From NCBI GenBank assembly GCA_024697625.1, contig JAILFJ010000146.1, positions 45,074-109,073 of the forward strand: 64,000 bases of DNA. Direction: 5' to 3'. Numbering within the stretch: the first letter of the stretch is position 1; the number at the start of each line of letters is the position of its first letter. The notes beneath the pieces were generated by a model that saw nothing but the letters and a program-made list of their open reading frames with translations, made no database searches and had not been told where the DNA came from. This DNA is from Oscillospiraceae bacterium. Its GTDB lineage: Bacteria; Bacillota; Clostridia; Oscillospirales; Oscillospiraceae. A program made the position numbers and the translations under genes. This document shows positions 9,246-36,568 of the stretch, piece after piece.

Positions 9246-10990
9246 GAGCCATGATTGTTCTGCGAACGGTTCTGTTTCTAGCCTCTCTGCTTGGGTATCT
9301 TGGCTGGCTGAGCCGTAGAATGCTTCCAGAGTTTGTACCGGCAGTTCTGTTCTCGTCAATCGGCTGCCTGATGCTTCTGGCAGCATTGTGCGGAGCTTCA
9401 GGTGCAGGAGCAGTGGCTGTATGCCTGACAGGGCTGCTGCTTTTGGGATTCGCACTGCGAAAACGAGAGTCTTTTCGAGGACTGCTCTGTTTCTCCAACG
9501 GGTTTCTTCTTGTCCTCTGTCTGTATTTTCTCTGGAACCTTTACGGTATACGTCTGACAGGATATGACGACTTCAGCCACTGGGGTGTGATAACCAGAAT
9601 CCTGATCACACAGGATCGGCTTCCAGATTCAGGGGATGTCCTGCTGTCATTTCAGTCCTATCCACCGGGGATGGCATTGCTGATCTATTGGGCAGTAAAG
9701 ATCGTAGGTATTAATGAGGAATGGTTCTGGCTGTATACTCAGGCTGTTCTTACCATGTCGATGTATATGGGCCTGTTTGCATTCACACAGACACGCCGTG
9801 AGCGCTGGTTTATGTGTGTCTGTATTCTGATTCTGCTCTGCAGTAATACTTTTTTCATCAACCTGCTTGTTGACGGTGTGGTGACTGCTGCTGCGCTGGG
9901 CAGTATGTGCTTTTGCCTGTGGTATACGCATACGTCTGAAGGCAACAGGGTGGGAGACAGAAAAGCAGTTCTCTTCTGGCTTATACCGCAGATGGCGTTT
10001 CTGCTTCTGGTGAAGAATAGCGGTGTTTTTTTTGCACTGATCCCGGCACTTTATCTGCTTTTTAAGAGTGAGAATACGGAGGACCGACGCAGAGGGATTG
10101 TCCTGATGTTACTCAGTCTTATGCCGGTTCTTCTGTGGAGATGGCATGTGAGATCGGTATTTCCGGAAGGAATGCTGTCGAAGCATGCTCTGTCATGGGG
10201 ATACCTCAGCAACACGATTACGGATAAAACCGTGCAGGGTATGAAATATATTCTAGCCAAACTGCTGAATCGACTTTTTTCACCAAAGACAGAACTTGTC
10301 TGGCTGCTGGCGTTCTCCGGACTTGCAGCATACTCAGGGCGCAGTCTTCTGAGAAGAAGAGACTCACTTCTTCGTGCGGTGCTTTCTGTGGATCTGCTCG
10401 CCGGACTGTTCTATGTCTTCTTTCTGTATCTGATGTATCTGTTTGCCATGCCCTGGTACGAAGCTTCCCTGCTTGCAGGGTTTGAACGATATCTCAGGAC
10501 TTTCACGGCATATGCCTGCGGCCTGATGAGCCTGGCGCTTCCGGAGATATGGAGAGACGGAGGGGGCTCTGCGCAGCGCCTGCACCTGCGCTCGGCATTG
10601 ATGGCTGGATGGGTTCTGCTGATTGCGCTTTCAATGGGAAGACGGTATGATTTTTATTTGAAATGGCCGATGGACGGAGAACCAAGGACAGCCTTGGAGG
10701 CCGTCATTGCGGAACACTCTGTCCTGCCTGGCAAGAATTATCTCATTGTTATCGGGGACGAGAACGAAGACCGGGAGTATCTTCAATACATGGCCCGTTA
10801 TGTTTTAAACTCTGAACAGGTCACCGTTCTTACGCCTGAAGAATTGCATGAGAAAACGGACTGCGAAGGAGAAGCGGACTATGTGATCGCATGGGATTGG
10901 AACGATGAAATCAGAAAACAGCTTTCGCCAGAATTCGGTTTACAACCGGATCGGGTGATTGCCTTAGAAAAGGTGACGGAGCAATTGTGA
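9242..10990 (+). CDS. GT-C-like multi-TM membrane protein
   Basis: 582 aa, many TM helices, loop motif LTGYDDFSHWGVITR; overlaps upstream stop. Start may be ATG 9251. Confidence 0.6.
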   Translation: MRAMIVLRTVLFLASLLGYLGWLSRRMLPEFVPAVLFSSIGCLMLLAALCGASGAGAVAVCLTGLLLLGFALRKRESFRGLLCFSNGFLLVLCLYFLWNLYGIRLTGYDDFSHWGVITRILITQDRLPDSGDVLLSFQSYPPGMALLIYWAVKIVGINEEWFWLYTQAVLTMSMYMGLFAFTQTRRERWFMCVCILILLCSNTFFINLLVDGVVTAAALGSMCFCLWYTHTSEGNRVGDRKAVLFWLIPQMAFLLLVKNSGVFFALIPALYLLFKSENTEDRRRGIVLMLLSLMPVLLWRWHVRSVFPEGMLSKHALSWGYLSNTITDKTVQGMKYILAKLLNRLFSPKTELVWLLAFSGLAAYSGRSLLRRRDSLLRAVLSVDLLAGLFYVFFLYLMYLFAMPWYEASLLAGFERYLRTFTAYACGLMSLALPEIWRDGGGSAQRLHLRSALMAGWVLLIALSMGRRYDFYLKWPMDGEPRTALEAVIAEHSVLPGKNYLIVIGDENEDREYLQYMARYVLNSEQVTVLTPEELHEKTDCEGEADYVIAWDWNDEIRKQLSPEFGLQPDRVIALEKVTEQL

Positions 10991-11004
10991 TGCCGTTATA
11001 AGGG

Positions 11005-12441
11005 GTGACAGAGATGAGCCAGATCAGGAATACGGCAGAAGAACACAGAAAGCTCGCATTAATGATTGCGGTTTTTTTGTTCTATCTGTTTTATCTGCTT
11101 TCCAATCTCAATATTTATCTCTATTACAGTTTGAGAGAGACTTGGTTCGTGCTCGCTGTTCCAGTCCTTGTTGCGGGTGTGCTGTACTTCGGCAGACACT
11201 GGGACAAGTGGGAATACCGCCTCATGGTCGCCTATTGCACATGGTTTCTGATTTCACGTATGCTGCATGACAACATTGCTCTGACGGAAGACTTCATGAA
11301 GACAGTGGATGTTTTCCTGCTGATTCCGTTCTTTGCACTGGGACTGTGCCTGAAAACAGAGGAGCGCAGGCGGTTCCTGGACGTTTTTTCTGCCGTGATC
11401 GGGGTATTTTACTTTCTGCTCGGTGTTTTATGCATTTTTTCCGCGCTCTACAGGATTGAATTCATTAATCCCATCTCACAGCAGTATCTGTGTAAAATGA
11501 GAACGGAGACGGGTTTCTCAAGACTGATCATCATGGATATCAATCCAGATACTACAAATTGCTGGTTTATGAACAGCTTTTTCCTGATGGTGTATCAGTT
11601 TTTTGCTTGCAGAAAAAAGTGGTGGCGGATTCCTGCTGTACTTTGTGCGGCTGTAGATTATGTTGTATTGTCGATATGTTATGTGAGAAGTGTCATGGTA
11701 GCTTTCTCTGTGGGGATGGGCTTGCTGAGCGCCCTGATGATTCTCAGACATTTCAAGGGGAAGACAGGCTTACGTGCTTTTGCAGGTATGAGTGTGGTGT
11801 TTTTGATTACTGCCTCCGTAGTTTTTCTTGGTTTTGGTGTGGTATTTCGGAGCTATGGACATCTTTCTGTCGAACTGCGATATCCAAACGCTTCACAGGA
11901 GGAAAAGCAGGAATACTATCTGAGAGATTTTACGAATCCCAAGAAGATAACGGGGAACAATCTGACAGAGATCTCTACAGGACGTGACTGGATCTACAGA
12001 TCTGCTTTTGTTACAATCAGGGAAAACCCCAGCATCCTTTTGACAGGTACCCTTACCAAAGATACGACGGAAATAGCCACAGATTATCTTCGGGAACACG
12101 GCAGATACAAGCCGGACAGAGAACTGGATCACTTTCAGAACTTTCTGCTTCAGGTGATGGTTCTGACAGGCCTCCCGGGGCTCCTGCTCGTGCTTGCAGT
12201 ATGTGTTCTGCTTGTACGCTCTGCACTGCGGCTGTTTTTCTGTGAGCCGGAGCGGGTACCGATCTTTGTCCAGACCCTGATGCTTCCGGTTCTTGGAGCC
12301 ATGATTTACGGCATGTTTGAGATTACATATTTTACCAATGCTGACCACTGCTCACTGATGTTCTATCTTATGGGCGGGATGATGACAGGCTGGTATTATG
12401 ACATTTTTCCTATAAATGATAAAGGAGCCGTAAGAGCATGA
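11005..12441 (+). CDS. O-antigen ligase/polymerase (Wzy-like) membrane protein
   Basis: Multi-TM protein with a large loop (GRDWIYRSAFVTIRENPSILLTG..HFQNFLLQVMVLTGLPGLLLVLA) typical of the O-antigen ligase/Wzy superfamily. Confidence 0.7.
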   Translation: MTEMSQIRNTAEEHRKLALMIAVFLFYLFYLLSNLNIYLYYSLRETWFVLAVPVLVAGVLYFGRHWDKWEYRLMVAYCTWFLISRMLHDNIALTEDFMKTVDVFLLIPFFALGLCLKTEERRRFLDVFSAVIGVFYFLLGVLCIFSALYRIEFINPISQQYLCKMRTETGFSRLIIMDINPDTTNCWFMNSFFLMVYQFFACRKKWWRIPAVLCAAVDYVVLSICYVRSVMVAFSVGMGLLSALMILRHFKGKTGLRAFAGMSVVFLITASVVFLGFGVVFRSYGHLSVELRYPNASQEEKQEYYLRDFTNPKKITGNNLTEISTGRDWIYRSAFVTIRENPSILLTGTLTKDTTEIATDYLREHGRYKPDRELDHFQNFLLQVMVLTGLPGLLLVLAVCVLLVRSALRLFFCEPERVPIFVQTLMLPVLGAMIYGMFEITYFTNADHCSLMFYLMGGMMTGWYYDIFPINDKGAVRA

Positions 12442-29629: not shown

Positions 29630-29920
29630 CGCCTGACCATAATATTGTTAATTATGCATAAAATACCAACTTCCACTTTGCCTTCAGTATAACACGCTTT
29701 ACCCGCGGATTCAATCTTCTTTCAGTAACAAGTATGTAACAAAATATATCTATAGAGGTATGGTAAATACAGAACAGTGATGTTATAATAAGAACTCAGC
29801 AGGTTGCAGCTGCGCATCAGCTGTCCCTTGTATGATTATGCATTATGGCCCGATGGCCCGCTGCACGCTTCCGCGAAGGAGTGCATGACGAAGACGTGCA
29901 GGACAGAATGTAACAGGAGA

Positions 29921-30226
29921 ATGGTGAATATGGAAATCAAAAAAACTGCCGAAGGGACCCGCCTTACCGTCGCTCTGGAAGGCCGGCTGGATACACTCTC
30001 GTCCCGGGATCTGGAAAAGGAACTGCGCGCCACGGTGCCCGGACTGACAGAACTGGTGTTCGATTTTGAAAAACTGACTTTTATCACCTCTGCGGGGCTT
30101 CGTGTCATTTCCTTGGCCAAAAAACTGATGAACAAACAGGGGCACATGGTCATCCGCAATACGCAGTCGGATGTCATGGAGGTCTTTGACGCGACAGGGC
30201 TTTCGGCTTTTCTGGAGTTCGAGTAA
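29921..30226 (+). CDS. STAS-domain anti-sigma-factor antagonist
   Basis: MEIKKTAEGTRLTVALEGRLDTLSSRDLEKEL..LVFDFEKLTFITSAGLRVISLAKK; start 29921 or 29930. Confidence 0.92.
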   Translation: MVNMEIKKTAEGTRLTVALEGRLDTLSSRDLEKELRATVPGLTELVFDFEKLTFITSAGLRVISLAKKLMNKQGHMVIRNTQSDVMEVFDATGLSAFLEFE

Positions 30227-30250
30227 ACAGACCGGTGCCATGCATGACCG

Positions 30251-32572
30251 ATGAAACCGAATGAACCGAAAGACATGCCCCGCAGGACGACCATCTCGCA
30301 CACATTCCTCCTTTGGCTGCTGCTGATTGTGACTGCAGCCTTCCTGGTATCAATGGTATTTACCTGGACCCATCAGACGGCGATGTCCAGGAACAATGCG
30401 GAGATGCTTCTGCGGACCAACGTCAGTGATGTGAGGCAGGATGTCATCGATGCGTCGGACGAAAACCTTCTGGACCTGTGCAGGAGAATTGCCCGTGACT
30501 TCGATGAAGGCGCTGCGACAGACAGCTCCGCGCTGCTTGAGATGATGGACGTTTTCGATGTGGCGGAGATCAATATCATCGATGAGAATGGAATCATCAC
30601 CTCGACAACCTTTCCGGACTTTCTGGGCTATTACATGGGAGACGGCGAGCAGTCTGCGGAGTTTCTCTGTCTGTTGGACGGGTCGGAGACCGAGTATGTC
30701 CAGAGCTATCAGCCGACTTCGCACAACGCTTCTCTCCTGAGAAAATATGCCGGGACCGTCCTGAAGAACGGCGGTTTTGTCCAGGTGGGATATGACGGAA
30801 GCCGCTTCCGGAGGGACATCGACAGGTATGTGATCAACGCCGCAAAGAACCGCCATGTCGGACAGAGCGGCTGCGTGATCATCGCCAATGAGGAATGGAA
30901 CATCGTCAGCGATCTTTACGGAAACGAGGGAGAGAACCTGTATGCCACCGGCATCTGGATCAACCGGGACACCATGCCGGAGAACGAAGTGTTCCGTGCG
31001 CAGGTCTACGGCCAGCCGTGCTCCTGCGTCTATATCTTTTCCGAAGGATACTATATTGTGACTGTCCTTCCGGAGAACGAGATCATCCTTCAGCGGGAGA
31101 CCTCCGTCAGAACCGTCGGCATGGTTGAAATTCTTCTGTTCCTGGTGCTTTTCTGTGTGATCTTTACTCTGGTCAGGAGGCTGGTGGTCGACAATCTGGA
31201 GAAGGTCAACCATTCTCTGGCGAAGATCACGGACGGAGACCTGGACGAAGTGGTGGACGTGCGCTCCAATGCGGAGTTCTCTGACCTCTCGGACGACATC
31301 AATTCCACGGTCAGCACGCTGAAACAGTATATCGCGGCTGCGGCCTCCCGGATCGATGAAGAACTGGCTCTCGCAAAGAACATCCAGCTGTCCGCACTGC
31401 CCTCCGTTTTCCCGCCCTATCCGGACCAGACTGCGTTTTCTGTTTTTGCCGCGATGGATACGGCAAAGGAGGTCGGCGGGGACTTTTATGATTTCTATCT
31501 CCTGGATGAAAACCGGCTGGCTTTCCTGATTGCGGACGTCTCGGGCAAGGGCATCCCTGCGGCCATGTTCATGATGACCGCCAAGACCGTCCTGAGGGAC
31601 TATGCCGAGCGCGGCGATCCGCCGGAGGAGATCTTTGACAACGCAAACGGCAAGCTCTGTGAGGGGAACGAGTCGGAGATGTTTCTGACAGCCTGGATGG
31701 GCTTTCTCGAAACGGAAACCGGACTGGTCCGTTACATCAACGCGGGTCACAGCCGGCCTGTCCTGATCCGGAACGGCACGGCATCCTTCGTCGAGCAGAA
31801 GGTCAATCTGATGCTGGCAATGATGGAGGACTTCCCCTATGCGGAGCAGACTCTTCAGCTGCTGCCCGGAGATATTCTCTACCTCTATACGGACGGCGTG
31901 ACGGAGGCGTCAAAAGCGGACGAGAGCAGATTCGGAAATGACAGACTTCTGAGCATCCTCTCGGATGATTTCGGAACCGGAGAAGCCGCCTGCCGGAGCA
32001 TCTGCCGTGCCGTGCGAGAGAGCATTGATGCATTTGCGGAGGGAGAGCCGCAGTTCGATGATATCACCCAGGTGTGCCTGTATTATGCAGGGCAGGCCCC
32101 GGGGAAAGCCTGCCTGCCCGAAGAGGACAGCGGGAAGGCCCACCGTCTGACGGGAGAGCTGACCGTGGCGGCGGAAGAGGCCGGTCTCTCTCCGGTGCTC
32201 GACATGATCGACGGACTTCTGGAGGAAGCCTCCTGCGCATCGAAGGCAAGGGAGCAGATCGAGATGGCGGTGGAAGAGATCTTCGTCAACATCGCAGATT
32301 ATGCCTATCCGGAAGGGCTTGGGGAATGCACCGTTCTTGCGGACATCGACAGAGACTTGAAGACAGCCGAAATCACCGTCATCGACACGGGGAAACCCTA
32401 TGACCCCCTGGCAAAGCCGGATCCGGACCTGAACATGGACCTTGAACAGCGGGAGTTTGGCGGCTTTGGAATCTTTATGGTCAAGGAAGCGATGGATACC
32501 GTGGAATACAGGCGGGAAGAGGGGAAGAATATTCTGACCATCCGGAAAAGCTGGATGCAGACGGAAGTGTGA
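30251..32572 (+). CDS. Membrane sensor with HAMP, SpoIIE/RsbU-type PP2C phosphatase and C-terminal RsbW-like ATPase domain
   Basis: TM, ~250-aa extracytoplasmic region, TM, HAMP; PP2C motifs AKEVGGDFYDFY, FLIADVSGKGIPAAMFM, LYLYTDGVTEA, FDDITQVCL; ATPase boxes EEIFVNIADYAY, VIDTGKPYDP, REFGGFGIFMVK. Confidence 0.92.
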   Translation: MKPNEPKDMPRRTTISHTFLLWLLLIVTAAFLVSMVFTWTHQTAMSRNNAEMLLRTNVSDVRQDVIDASDENLLDLCRRIARDFDEGAATDSSALLEMMDVFDVAEINIIDENGIITSTTFPDFLGYYMGDGEQSAEFLCLLDGSETEYVQSYQPTSHNASLLRKYAGTVLKNGGFVQVGYDGSRFRRDIDRYVINAAKNRHVGQSGCVIIANEEWNIVSDLYGNEGENLYATGIWINRDTMPENEVFRAQVYGQPCSCVYIFSEGYYIVTVLPENEIILQRETSVRTVGMVEILLFLVLFCVIFTLVRRLVVDNLEKVNHSLAKITDGDLDEVVDVRSNAEFSDLSDDINSTVSTLKQYIAAAASRIDEELALAKNIQLSALPSVFPPYPDQTAFSVFAAMDTAKEVGGDFYDFYLLDENRLAFLIADVSGKGIPAAMFMMTAKTVLRDYAERGDPPEEIFDNANGKLCEGNESEMFLTAWMGFLETETGLVRYINAGHSRPVLIRNGTASFVEQKVNLMLAMMEDFPYAEQTLQLLPGDILYLYTDGVTEASKADESRFGNDRLLSILSDDFGTGEAACRSICRAVRESIDAFAEGEPQFDDITQVCLYYAGQAPGKACLPEEDSGKAHRLTGELTVAAEEAGLSPVLDMIDGLLEEASCASKAREQIEMAVEEIFVNIADYAYPEGLGECTVLADIDRDLKTAEITVIDTGKPYDPLAKPDPDLNMDLEQREFGGFGIFMVKEAMDTVEYRREEGKNILTIRKSWMQTEV

Positions 32573-34302
32573 ACAAGATGTCCTTCATGTCAAAGAAGTA
32601 TTATTCCATGCTGCTCAGCGGAACACTGAGTACGATTGTCGTTACCGTTCTGCTGATGTCCGATTCGATCATAGCCGGCTCGGTCATCGGTGAAACGGCT
32701 GTGGCAGGGATCACGCTTGTCTCGCCCCTGTATTCACTGGCGGTTTTTTTCAGTTCTGTTTTCTCCCTGGGCATTCCGATTGCCTATTCCGAAGAGATGG
32801 GAAAGTTCAGGCAGAAAGAGGCTGACAGGGTATTTGGTTTCGGCTTTCTGATGTCATTGGCGACAGGCGTGTTTCTCCTGCTCTCGATCCTTCTGTTCGG
32901 AGAAATCTATCTGAAGAGCAGCCACCAGCTTCCGACCGTCGTGGAGGAAGCCCGGAGATATCTCTCCTTTATGCGGTTTACGATGCTCTGCCTGCCTTTG
33001 AATAATCTTCTGTCGAGTGCGGTTTATTCCGACGGAGATGACACGATCCCCATGGTATCCAGTCTGGTTCAGTGTGTCGGCAATCTGACAGCCTCCTTCC
33101 TTCTCAGCCGGACGATGGGGATTCGGGGGATCAGCCTCGCGTCGTTTGTGTTTACATTGATTGCGACAGCAATTCTCTTTCTGCACTTTCTGAAGAAGAA
33201 CAATTCTCTGAGACTCAACCTGTATTTCTCCTTCCCGCTTATGAAGAAGGTCGTCCGTTACAGCTTTATTGATGCAAGCGTCTACCTGTTTTCAGCTGCG
33301 TTCACGACCGTTCTGAACACTTTTGTCACCCTGTATTTCGGTGGAGAATACCTGGTTCTGGTGTCCGTTGTCCTGCTTTGCAGCGAGTTCCAGATGCTGT
33401 ATGACGGGATCGGAGAGGCGATTACGCCCATACTCAGCGTTTATCTGGGTGAGGACTGCTTCCCGGGAATCAGGAAGATTTACAGACTGGCGGAGAAGAC
33501 CTCCGTTGCTGAGGGAATCTTCGTTTTTGCGGTGCTGTTTTTTGCCGCTCCCCATATTCCCGGTCTGCTGGGCATTTCCGACCCGGAGATGGTTCGGATT
33601 GCGGCTGCGGGGGTACGCTTCATTTCGGTCAGCGGCCCGTTTGTGAGTCTGCTCTCTCTGACTGCAGCCTATGCCCTCGTGGTCGACAGAATTTTGCTCG
33701 GGATGGCGACCATCGGACTGCGGGATTTTCTGCTCCCCGGGCTCTTCTCCGTGCTGTTCGGAATGCTCTTCGGACTGAAAGGCTTCTTTTTCGGCGTGAT
33801 GTTCGGCCTGGTACTGGCCTGGGTCGGGATGATGGTTTTCATGCGTCTGAGATATGGGGACGACGCCCCGCTGCTGCTCAGGAAGCTTGAAGAAAACAGG
33901 GAGACGCTGCTCTACGATCTGACGGTTGAACCGTATTCGGTTCGGCGCATCCGGGACGAAATCGGGGAGGCGCTGAAGTCGCGCTCCTATGACCATTCGA
34001 CGGTGTTCCGGGTAGAGCTCCTTTTCGAAGAACTCTTTATGCTGATCAATGAGAAGAATGGAGACCGTGTCATACAGGGGGAGTGCACGCTGCTCCTTGG
34101 GGACAGTGCAATACGGATGATCACCAGAGATACGGGGATCATATTCGATCCGACGGATGATGACATGGCGATTACCAATATCGGCAGTCATGTCCTTCTC
34201 AGCGTTGCGGAGAGGATCTCTGATCAGAAACGTTATCTCATGACAATGAGCTTCAACCGCACCTCGTTCGAGATTAAGGCCCGGAAGGAGATCCCGGCGT
34301 AG
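32569..34302 (+). CDS. MATE-family transporter fused to a C-terminal RsbW-like (HATPase) domain
   Basis: About 12 TM MOP/MATE protein (LLSGTLSTIVVTVLLMSDSIIAGSVIGETAVAGITLVSP), then VEPYSVRRIRDEIGEALKS..VELLFEELFMLINEKNG..IRMITRDTGIIFDPTDDD; GTGA overlap with upstream stop. Confidence 0.85.
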   Translation: MNKMSFMSKKYYSMLLSGTLSTIVVTVLLMSDSIIAGSVIGETAVAGITLVSPLYSLAVFFSSVFSLGIPIAYSEEMGKFRQKEADRVFGFGFLMSLATGVFLLLSILLFGEIYLKSSHQLPTVVEEARRYLSFMRFTMLCLPLNNLLSSAVYSDGDDTIPMVSSLVQCVGNLTASFLLSRTMGIRGISLASFVFTLIATAILFLHFLKKNNSLRLNLYFSFPLMKKVVRYSFIDASVYLFSAAFTTVLNTFVTLYFGGEYLVLVSVVLLCSEFQMLYDGIGEAITPILSVYLGEDCFPGIRKIYRLAEKTSVAEGIFVFAVLFFAAPHIPGLLGISDPEMVRIAAAGVRFISVSGPFVSLLSLTAAYALVVDRILLGMATIGLRDFLLPGLFSVLFGMLFGLKGFFFGVMFGLVLAWVGMMVFMRLRYGDDAPLLLRKLEENRETLLYDLTVEPYSVRRIRDEIGEALKSRSYDHSTVFRVELLFEELFMLINEKNGDRVIQGECTLLLGDSAIRMITRDTGIIFDPTDDDMAITNIGSHVLLSVAERISDQKRYLMTMSFNRTSFEIKARKEIPA

Positions 34303-34536: not shown

Positions 34537-35287
34537 GTGGCAGGAAAAATGTTGAAAAGGTTCTTTTTATATTGCACGCTGACCGCGGATGAGTTCCATA
34601 TGATCAGGCCGCTGATCTGGATCAGAAACCGGCGTACGCTTCAGATCACATCCCTGCTTGCGACCGCGATGGGCCTGCTGTTCTACCTGATCAACAGGCT
34701 GACGAACTCCGGGGTTCTGTTTCCGTATCTGTTCCTGTTCTGCAGCAGCTTCCTGATCTATCTGTGCATCCGGCTGACGAAGCGCGTGAACAAGCGGGAA
34801 CTGATCAACATGGTCCTGTGCTATACCCAGATGCTGATGGTCTGCGCCTATGCGGGGATTCTCAGCACCCAGAGCAGCAACTATGCCGTCCCGGCCACCA
34901 GCATCATCGTGTTCATCGCCATCCTCCCTCTGTCCATTGATGACCGCCCCGTCCGGATGTACAGCTTCATGCTGATGGAATCGGCGATCTATCTGTTCCT
35001 CTCCTTCCGCATGAAGGCGGAACATGCCTTTTCTCTGGATGTTCTGAACACCCTGACTTTCTGTGCTGTGGGGATGGTGCTCTACGCCGTGATCTGCGTG
35101 CGGAATGTCCGCGAGATCTACCAGAGCGTCAAGGTGGAACGGATCCAGCAGAGCATCATTTCGTCGCTTGCAGCCGTCGTGGAAGAGCGGGATGAAAACA
35201 CGGGAGATCCTGAAAGAGGGGACAGGCACACAGTTTGACCCGGATCTGGTTCCCATCTTTCTGGAGGCGGTTGAGCGGCTGTGCTGA
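34537..35287 (+). pseudogene. Membrane HD-GYP phosphodiesterase with internal deletion (intact frame ends at 35238)
   Basis: Six-TM N-terminus, then SSLAAVVEERDENTGD (HD-GYP entry) followed at once, in another frame, by EILKEGTGTQFDPDLVPIFLEAVE (HD-GYP exit). Confidence 0.7.
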
Positions 35288-35320: not shown

Positions 35321-35473
35321 GACGAAAGCCAGAAATACCGGGATAATATATAATTGTGAGACTGTGTGGTATTTCAGACTCTCGCCCGCCCGAAGTAGGC
35401 TCTCGTGATGCAGCACGGTCACCGGCCTGCTTTCCGTGAAGTTTTTCCTGGAATTCTGCGTGGGGTAGATCAT

Positions 35474-36568
35474 ATGCTCAGAAGATTAAAGACCATCTTT
35501 TTGTATGAAAATTCCATCATAAACAGCCCGAGAGACGTTAAGGCCCAGATTATGGAGGAAAACCGGAGATTCGCCATCATCTGGTCGATTGTCCAGATCC
35601 TCTACTGGGGTTACTGCCTATTCATGTCCACAAGGCAGACTGATTTTCTGGTCTGCCGCTCCATCTATGCCGTCTCTCTGGTAGTCTGTATCTATACCCT
35701 TCTTATGTCTCTTTTCGTCGTGCCCAGGTTCCCTTGGATGATCCAGTTCGTCTCCATTGCGGTGGACGCTGCATTCCTTGGCGCCGGCGTCGCGATTGCG
35801 TGGCATCTCGCCCCGAAGACGATCATCATTTTTGGTTCGGTTCTGATTGTGCCGGTGCTTTTCATCTGCGATCTGCTGTCGTCGGTGATTATGCTGCTGG
35901 CAACCGTCACGGCGTTTGCGATTGTCGGAAGGCACGGCATGGAGCCCTCTGCCTACAGCTGGGCCCTGAGCAATGCGATCCTGTTTTCTTCACTTGGGCT
36001 GATCCTTGGCTTTTTTGTCAACAGGACCCGTTACGAGCGCTATCTTTTTGCGGATTCCGTTCTGAAACTGGCGGAACTGCAGACCCAGTATGCGTATAAC
36101 GATCCGCTGACAGGGCTGCATAACCGCAGGGCGTATTCTGAGAATATGGATCGCTTCGCCCTGAAGATGCCTCCGTACTGCTGTGTGATTATGGCGGATA
36201 TCAACGGCCTGAAAGAGATCAACGACAGGCTCGGCCATGAGGCGGGGGATGAGCTGATCATCGGTTCGGCGGAGTGCCTGCGCCAGGGCTTCATGGAGAT
36301 CGATACAATCTACCGGATCGGCGGCGATGAATTCTGCGTGATCTTTACAGATTCGGATACCGATGCCGGACAGTCCATGAAGCGGACGGAGGAATACTGC
36401 GCCGGCTGGAAGGGAAAGTATGTGAACGGCATCTCTCTCTCCTACGGCTGGGCGGATTCCAACGATTTCTCCGATCTGGAATCCATCCGGAAGGCGGCGG
36501 ACCAGCGGATGTATCAGTTCAAGAGGCAGTACTATATCAGCAAAGGGGCGGACCGGCGCAGAAGATGA
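35474..36568 (+). CDS. Membrane diguanylate cyclase (GGDEF)
   Basis: NDPLTGLHNRRAYSE..MADINGLKEINDRLGHEAGDELI..RIGGDEFCVIF; start at ATG 35474. Confidence 0.95.
   Translation: MLRRLKTIFLYENSIINSPRDVKAQIMEENRRFAIIWSIVQILYWGYCLFMSTRQTDFLVCRSIYAVSLVVCIYTLLMSLFVVPRFPWMIQFVSIAVDAAFLGAGVAIAWHLAPKTIIIFGSVLIVPVLFICDLLSSVIMLLATVTAFAIVGRHGMEPSAYSWALSNAILFSSLGLILGFFVNRTRYERYLFADSVLKLAELQTQYAYNDPLTGLHNRRAYSENMDRFALKMPPYCCVIMADINGLKEINDRLGHEAGDELIIGSAECLRQGFMEIDTIYRIGGDEFCVIFTDSDTDAGQSMKRTEEYCAGWKGKYVNGISLSYGWADSNDFSDLESIRKAADQRMYQFKRQYYISKGADRRRR

Follow-up and report, generated by a model that had tools for sequence, protein, structure and literature searches.

Partner switching is best known for releasing sigma factors, and few other outputs have been worked out. 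A locus within a 64,000-nt stretch of a gut Clostridia genome (the whole stretch analyzed here, hereafter the window) raised the question of what such a switch might control when its genes end in a transporter. Open reading frames placed three genes on the + strand between positions 29930 and 34302, encoding a STAS protein (29930–30226), a membrane PP2C-kinase (30251–32572) and a MATE protein with a C-terminal extension (32569–34302), with the 4-nt overlap GTGA (32569–32572, + strand) holding both the stop codon of the PP2C gene and the start codon of the MATE gene. The tight packing and shared 4 nt described in the initial annotation were therefore borne out, as was its observation that no sigma-factor gene adjoins the trio. 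Promoter and terminator scans yielded little beyond chance, and inspection of the ORFs together with domain searches showed the operon to be free of ABC and MCE genes. Further downstream, positions 34537–35238 encode a 233-aa membrane protein that is possibly truncated or frameshifted and that, judged by eye, ends in the apparent beginning of an HD-GYP domain.

The first gene encodes a 98-aa STAS-domain protein of the RsbV/SpoIIAA type (+ strand; Pfam STAS, 4.1e-11; TIGR00377 ant_ant_sig, above cut-off). An alternative in-frame ATG at 29921 stands too near the GGAG at 29916, which makes 29930 the likelier start. The protein carries the phospho-acceptor motif FITSAGLR, of which TSAGLR is kept in the orthologues from three other genomes (L030, L031 and L036), and so possesses the conserved phospho-acceptor Ser/Thr of a partner-switching STAS protein. 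The 773-aa product of the second gene (+ strand) was read by Pfam and hydropathy as a membrane sensor followed by HAMP, SpoIIE-type PP2C and RsbW-type kinase domains. Two hydrophobic, presumptive TM segments near residues 13–41 and 284–316 enclose an extracytoplasmic sensor region (30374–31099, + strand) that appears Cache-like by eye and for which a PDB sequence search found no relative; these are followed by a HAMP-like region (residues 308–358), a SpoIIE match (PF07228, 7.2e-50, residues 419–610) and a HATPase_c_2 match (2.8e-23, residues 640–766). The kinase domain (32168–32548, + strand) retains the N-box Asn, DxG and GGFG boxes according to Pfam and our residue table. A single protein thus supplies two components expected of partner switching, the SpoIIE-type PP2C and an RsbW-type serine kinase whose N, G1 and G2 boxes are intact; it also resembles SiaA (2e-16, below cut-off). 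The STAS, SpoIIE and HATPase_c_2 matches confirmed the earlier identification of a STAS protein and a membrane PP2C with its own RsbW-like domain. A paralogous STAS and sensor-PP2C-kinase pair (sensor ~51% identical) is present on contig C49 of the same genome (L027:220–4100), where the place of the transporter is taken by a protein of 269 aa whose match to an HPr-kinase C-domain is weak.

The third gene (577 aa, + strand) encodes a MATE transporter domain in residues 1–430 (32569–33858), which matched MatE in two stretches (PF01554, 6.1e-20) and TIGR00797 (2e-22), and which Foldseek aligned to MATE crystal structures (3vvo, E 1e-12). It is followed by a domain of ~130 aa (residues ~443–570; 33895–34278, + strand) that Pfam and NCBIfam do not call, the best HATPase_c_2 match having an E-value of 0.2, below cut-off. 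A profile of this domain nevertheless aligned by hhalign with a profile of RsbW-type kinases from this genome and its relatives (E 2.9e-6), and a broader profile of the domain gave a probability of 99 (E 2.7e-18, 126 columns). AlphaFold2 modeled the whole MATE protein with a pLDDT of 75.5 and the core of the C-terminal domain at ~80–97, and the fold order was strand-helix-helix-strand-strand-helix-strand both in the whole protein and in the domain alone. Since Foldseek searches with the full-length model are dominated by MATE-type folds and returned these alone, the C-terminal domain was modeled by itself, and its top 13 PDB matches were all UsfX, RsbW or SpoIIAB chains (E 5e-4 to 4e-3, probability 1.0), the best of them from structures determined together with STAS or sigma partners; TM-scores were ~0.5, with the C-terminal third of the model poorly defined. 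On a different MATE protein (L141), a related domain passes the Pfam cut-off for HATPase_c_2 (43.8 bits versus 27.4). A match to LIP1 (0.005), seen in one family member only, was set aside, and weak matches to myosin kinases in a PDB sequence search with the domain profile were judged to be chance. The HATPase-type fold anticipated for MATE residues ~445–577 was thus predicted by AlphaFold2 and Foldseek, with hhalign in support, and we assign the domain a predicted RsbW/SpoIIAB (GHKL) fold.

We compared the catalytic boxes of 101 domains aligned together. The N-box Asn, G1 DxG and G2 GGxG were all kept in 26 of 28 kinase domains (free RsbW, 7/7; STAS-fused, 4/4; PP2C-fused, 15/17, the window's included). 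Among the transporter-fused domains (50 MATE, 9 ABC and 12 SDF), the residue table contained no GGxG box, and the N-box Asn was kept in a minority (14/50, 1/9 and 1/12, respectively). What these domains do retain is the Glu four residues before the N-box Asn (MATE, 47/50; ABC, 9/9; SDF, 10/12) and the glycine of the DxG region, the latter across all three transporter classes. In the window's MATE domain, Glu488 and D521-T-G523 are present, the N-box Asn is replaced by Leu492, a Leu that is invariant in the orthologues, and the ATP lid with its G2 box (GGxG) is lost. In GHKL kinases, losing the N-box Asn and the lid boxes should abolish use of Mg-ATP. From these losses we predict that the MATE C-terminal domain is a pseudokinase, and we rejected the reading of it as a second kinase; this would leave the PP2C-fused domain as the only expected kinase for the STAS protein. 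The operon would accordingly pair an apparently functional kinase in the phosphatase protein with one RsbW-fold domain on the MATE protein that probably can only bind. The initial annotation had described the latter as another RsbW-like ATPase domain, a description that stood with respect to fold and failed with respect to catalysis. Two further proteins considered as possible transporter fusions (L091:5195–6856 and L092:5066–6802) proved to be degenerate phosphatase-pseudokinase fusions and were rejected as such, each combining a weak match to SpoIIE with an RsbW-fold domain, itself degenerate, at the C-terminus; a second, normal PP2C and a STAS gene lie nearby.

Relatives of the MATE protein were found on eight public MAG contigs, and the conservation of the trio that had been sought in other genomes was evident in three MAGs (L030, L031 and L036), where the identical genes occur in the same order, with MATE proteins 63–74% identical and with flanking genes that differ among the three and the window. 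More distant MATE-pseudokinase relatives occur in other Clostridia and Bacillota genomes in many gene arrangements, including PP2C-MATE (L071, L078), STAS-RsbW-MATE-x-PP2C (L088), STAS-MATE-PP2C/kinase (L093, L156, L160) and MATE-PP2C/kinase-STAS (L087), as well as two loci in which a STAS domain is fused to an NRPS-type condensation domain and the gene for this fusion overlaps the MATE-pseudokinase gene (L079:8244–9845 and L080:3752–5341). In the window's own genome, contig C24 carries a solitary MATE-pseudokinase paralogue facing a convergent gene for an AMP-binding/carrier/condensation protein (L026:7526–9250 and 9260–12244).

The lid-less domain is also found beyond MATE proteins. Across Clostridia and Bacillota, we found it fused to 50 MATE proteins, 12 SDF (Na+/dicarboxylate-type) symporters, in which it is N-terminal, and 9 amino-acid-type, GlnQ-like ABC ATPases, in which it is C-terminal, one of these being a fusion of substrate-binding protein, permease and ATPase. 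With a three-sequence profile, domains like those on SDF symporters were detected in 13 of 396 genomes of the order, nearly all in reading frames of 528–605 aa. A maximum-likelihood tree separated the MATE, SDF and ABC domains from all kinases (support 94/95), with the SDF domains forming a single group (100/97) and the ABC domains grouping at 94/35. This suggests a single origin of the transporter-fused pseudokinase domains, a suggestion rather than a proof given the midpoint rooting and long branches of this sequence-based tree. In a single case, an AMP-binding enzyme was seen to end in an RsbW-fold pseudokinase (L154:4606–6594), and partner-switching domains may thus also occur on biosynthetic enzymes. 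On the contig of the relative that encodes this enzyme (G351:C27; L154, L072/L153), its gene is clustered with those for a PP2C, MATE and SDF fusions, a STAS protein and a free kinase. Elsewhere, four loci (L074:5244–6842, L143:6590–8137, L159 and L162) encode single proteins that combine a STAS domain, an aminoglycoside-phosphotransferase-like kinase (APH by Pfam in L074) and an intact RsbW kinase.

We then asked how often these fusions lie near switch genes, counting any STAS, PP2C or active-kinase gene within 6 kb of fusions with enough flanking sequence. Such genes were present at 32 of 65 fusions (MATE, 25/46; SDF, 5/10; ABC, 2/9), 19 times directly adjacent on the same strand, versus none of 40 loci of ordinary MATEs in the same genomes. 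Fisher's test gave 6e-9, a value to be read loosely because the sequences are related and hence not independent, and because the controls were drawn from the best-scoring MATEs and were not clade-matched. The co-occurrence of MATE-RsbW fusions with STAS and SpoIIE-type neighbors, which the initial annotation had named as a check on its proposal, was therefore seen. At five loci (L079, L080, L085, L173 and L077), it is the STAS gene that abuts or overlaps the fusion where a kinase is not directly adjacent. Half of the fusions have no STAS, PP2C or kinase gene within 6 kb and, together with the solitary C24 paralogue, this means that some would have to act in trans or by another route.

These observations led us to consider it reasonably probable that the operon is a complete partner-switching module with a transporter output, in which the sensor phosphatase/kinase sets the state of the STAS protein and docking of the latter on the MATE pseudokinase changes transport. 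An extracellular signal would reach the membrane protein via its extracytoplasmic domain and HAMP region, and the protein would thereby set the balance between dephosphorylation of the STAS protein by its PP2C and phosphorylation by its own RsbW-type kinase. The unphosphorylated STAS protein would bind the catalytically dead RsbW-fold domain at the MATE C-terminus and alter transport activity, and its phosphorylation would release it. We infer the steps from sensor to STAS protein from homology, and docking and gating from domain logic, gene adjacency and the interaction of MlaB with MlaF, a precedent for STAS control of transporters (PMC7367683). In this model the STAS protein would be phosphorylated, would bind the MATE domain and would gate transport, with either activation or inhibition as the result. 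That the output may be transport instead of transcription, as first proposed from the sequence, was strengthened when SDF and ABC transporters with STAS genes nearby proved to carry this domain too, binding and gating being putative steps. The shuttling of the STAS protein between the PP2C-fused kinase and the MATE-fused domain, part of that first proposal, is likewise putative.

Other explanations of the locus were weighed against this model. One is an ordinary switch of a sigma factor encoded elsewhere, with the transporter gene in the same operon by chance; a STAS protein and an RsbW-type kinase are indeed the canonical pair of such switches. A search with the SigBFG model, however, recognized no SigB, SigF or SigG in the assembly, which is ~89% complete and could therefore be missing one; apart from a weak partial match, the one strong match was RpoD (599 bits versus the RpoD equivalog cut-off of 572), whose gene adjoins an apparent primase gene. 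A sigma-factor target was thus found neither adjacent to the trio nor among these matches, in keeping with the earlier expectation that no sigma factor would be the sole partner. As the kinase is also membrane-bound through its fusion to the phosphatase, and the MATE protein carries an RsbW-fold domain of its own, we regard this explanation as highly improbable. The MATE extension might instead be a structural or oligomerization domain of shared ancestry with no signaling role, its proximity to STAS genes reflecting old linkage; RsbW folds dimerize, the catalytic boxes are lost, and half of the fusions stand apart from switch genes. Against it stand the recurrent, rearranged adjacency to STAS, PP2C and kinase genes, compared with 0/40 control MATEs, and the Glu and DxG-region glycine retained across three transporter classes, making this explanation quite doubtful in our estimation.

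A somewhat more credible, though still unlikely, alternative reverses the direction of control: the MATE protein would be a sensor in which substrate binding or transport changes the pseudokinase domain, sequestering or releasing a STAS protein that acts elsewhere, with the free RsbW-like kinases or, by analogy with SiaC-SiaD, a diguanylate cyclase as examples of its targets. Membrane proteins are the inputs of most partner-switching systems, the genome has other STAS/RsbW pairs (contigs C45 and C171), and a GGDEF protein is encoded at 35405–36568, ~1.1 kb downstream of the trio with one gene between. ORF inspection of L031 and L036, however, revealed no comparable gene directly after the trio, and we rejected the GGDEF protein as a STAS target because it is not conserved. 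Furthermore, the operon already has a dedicated TM-sensor-HAMP-PP2C protein, there was no SigB, SigF or SigG found on which to act, and the occurrence of the domain on ABC ATPases and SDF symporters that have only a STAS gene beside them is easier to reconcile with a target than with three different sensors.

The proposed transporter-output module shares with RsbU/RsbV/RsbW and SpoIIE/SpoIIAA/SpoIIAB a phospho-serine STAS protein, a SpoIIE-type PP2C, an RsbW-type kinase and an RsbW fold as STAS partner, but differs from them in that the kinase is fused to a membrane phosphatase, a second, catalytically dead RsbW-fold domain lies on a transporter, and no SigB/F/G target was found. With SiaABCD of Pseudomonas aeruginosa, in which SiaC switches on a diguanylate cyclase, a non-sigma output, it shares a SiaA-like membrane sensor-HAMP-PP2C, a kinase and a STAS-type protein (PMC7647112, PMC8457831); in the window, kinase and phosphatase are instead one protein, the proposed output is transport by a protein that carries an RsbW-fold domain for docking, and the GGDEF gene lies beyond an intervening gene, outside the operon. 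In MlaFEDB, the STAS protein MlaB binds the ABC ATPase MlaF and so controls the transporter via its cytoplasmic part, and binding is weaker when the STAS Thr is replaced by a phosphomimetic residue, but MlaB binds the ATPase directly, with no RsbW-fold domain, kinase or PP2C attached there (PMC7367683); the window operon has neither MCE/Mla genes nor such a direct STAS-ABC ATPase pair. SLC26/SulP transporters likewise bear a partner-switching fold as a regulatory domain on a secondary transporter, theirs being the STAS half and that of the window MATE the RsbW half. STAS proteins whose outputs cannot clearly be called sigma factors are known from SypE/SypA of V. fischeri (SypE being a dual kinase/phosphatase), BtrUVW of Bordetella and RbaVW of Rhodobacter, with targets that are unknown or secretion-related and no transporter-fused RsbW domain described; the same review of STAS-only proteins lists sigma, diguanylate cyclase and unknown outputs, and no transporters with an RsbW-fold domain (PMC8256260). 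We found no description of MATE- or transporter-RsbW fusions, or of STAS-gated MATE proteins, in the open-access papers searched.

The system described here exemplifies a wider class, and the wider transporter-fused family is of more interest than this operon alone. The recurrence of the same pseudokinase domain on three unrelated transporter types beside switch genes suggests that some bacteria toggle transporters by partner switching. We lean slightly towards a general form of this idea, a class of post-translational transporter control in which an RsbW-derived pseudokinase on MATE, SDF and ABC proteins (and some biosynthetic enzymes) would serve as the docking site for a phospho-controlled STAS protein, gating transport in Clostridia, including those without a recognizable partner-switched sigma factor. 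If true, this would partly explain the STAS, PP2C and RsbW genes of genomes lacking SigB/F/G, would provide a phosphorylation-controlled counterpart to regulation by MlaB and the SulP STAS domain, and would make a portable STAS-docking pseudokinase a general, fast and reversible means of controlling transport.
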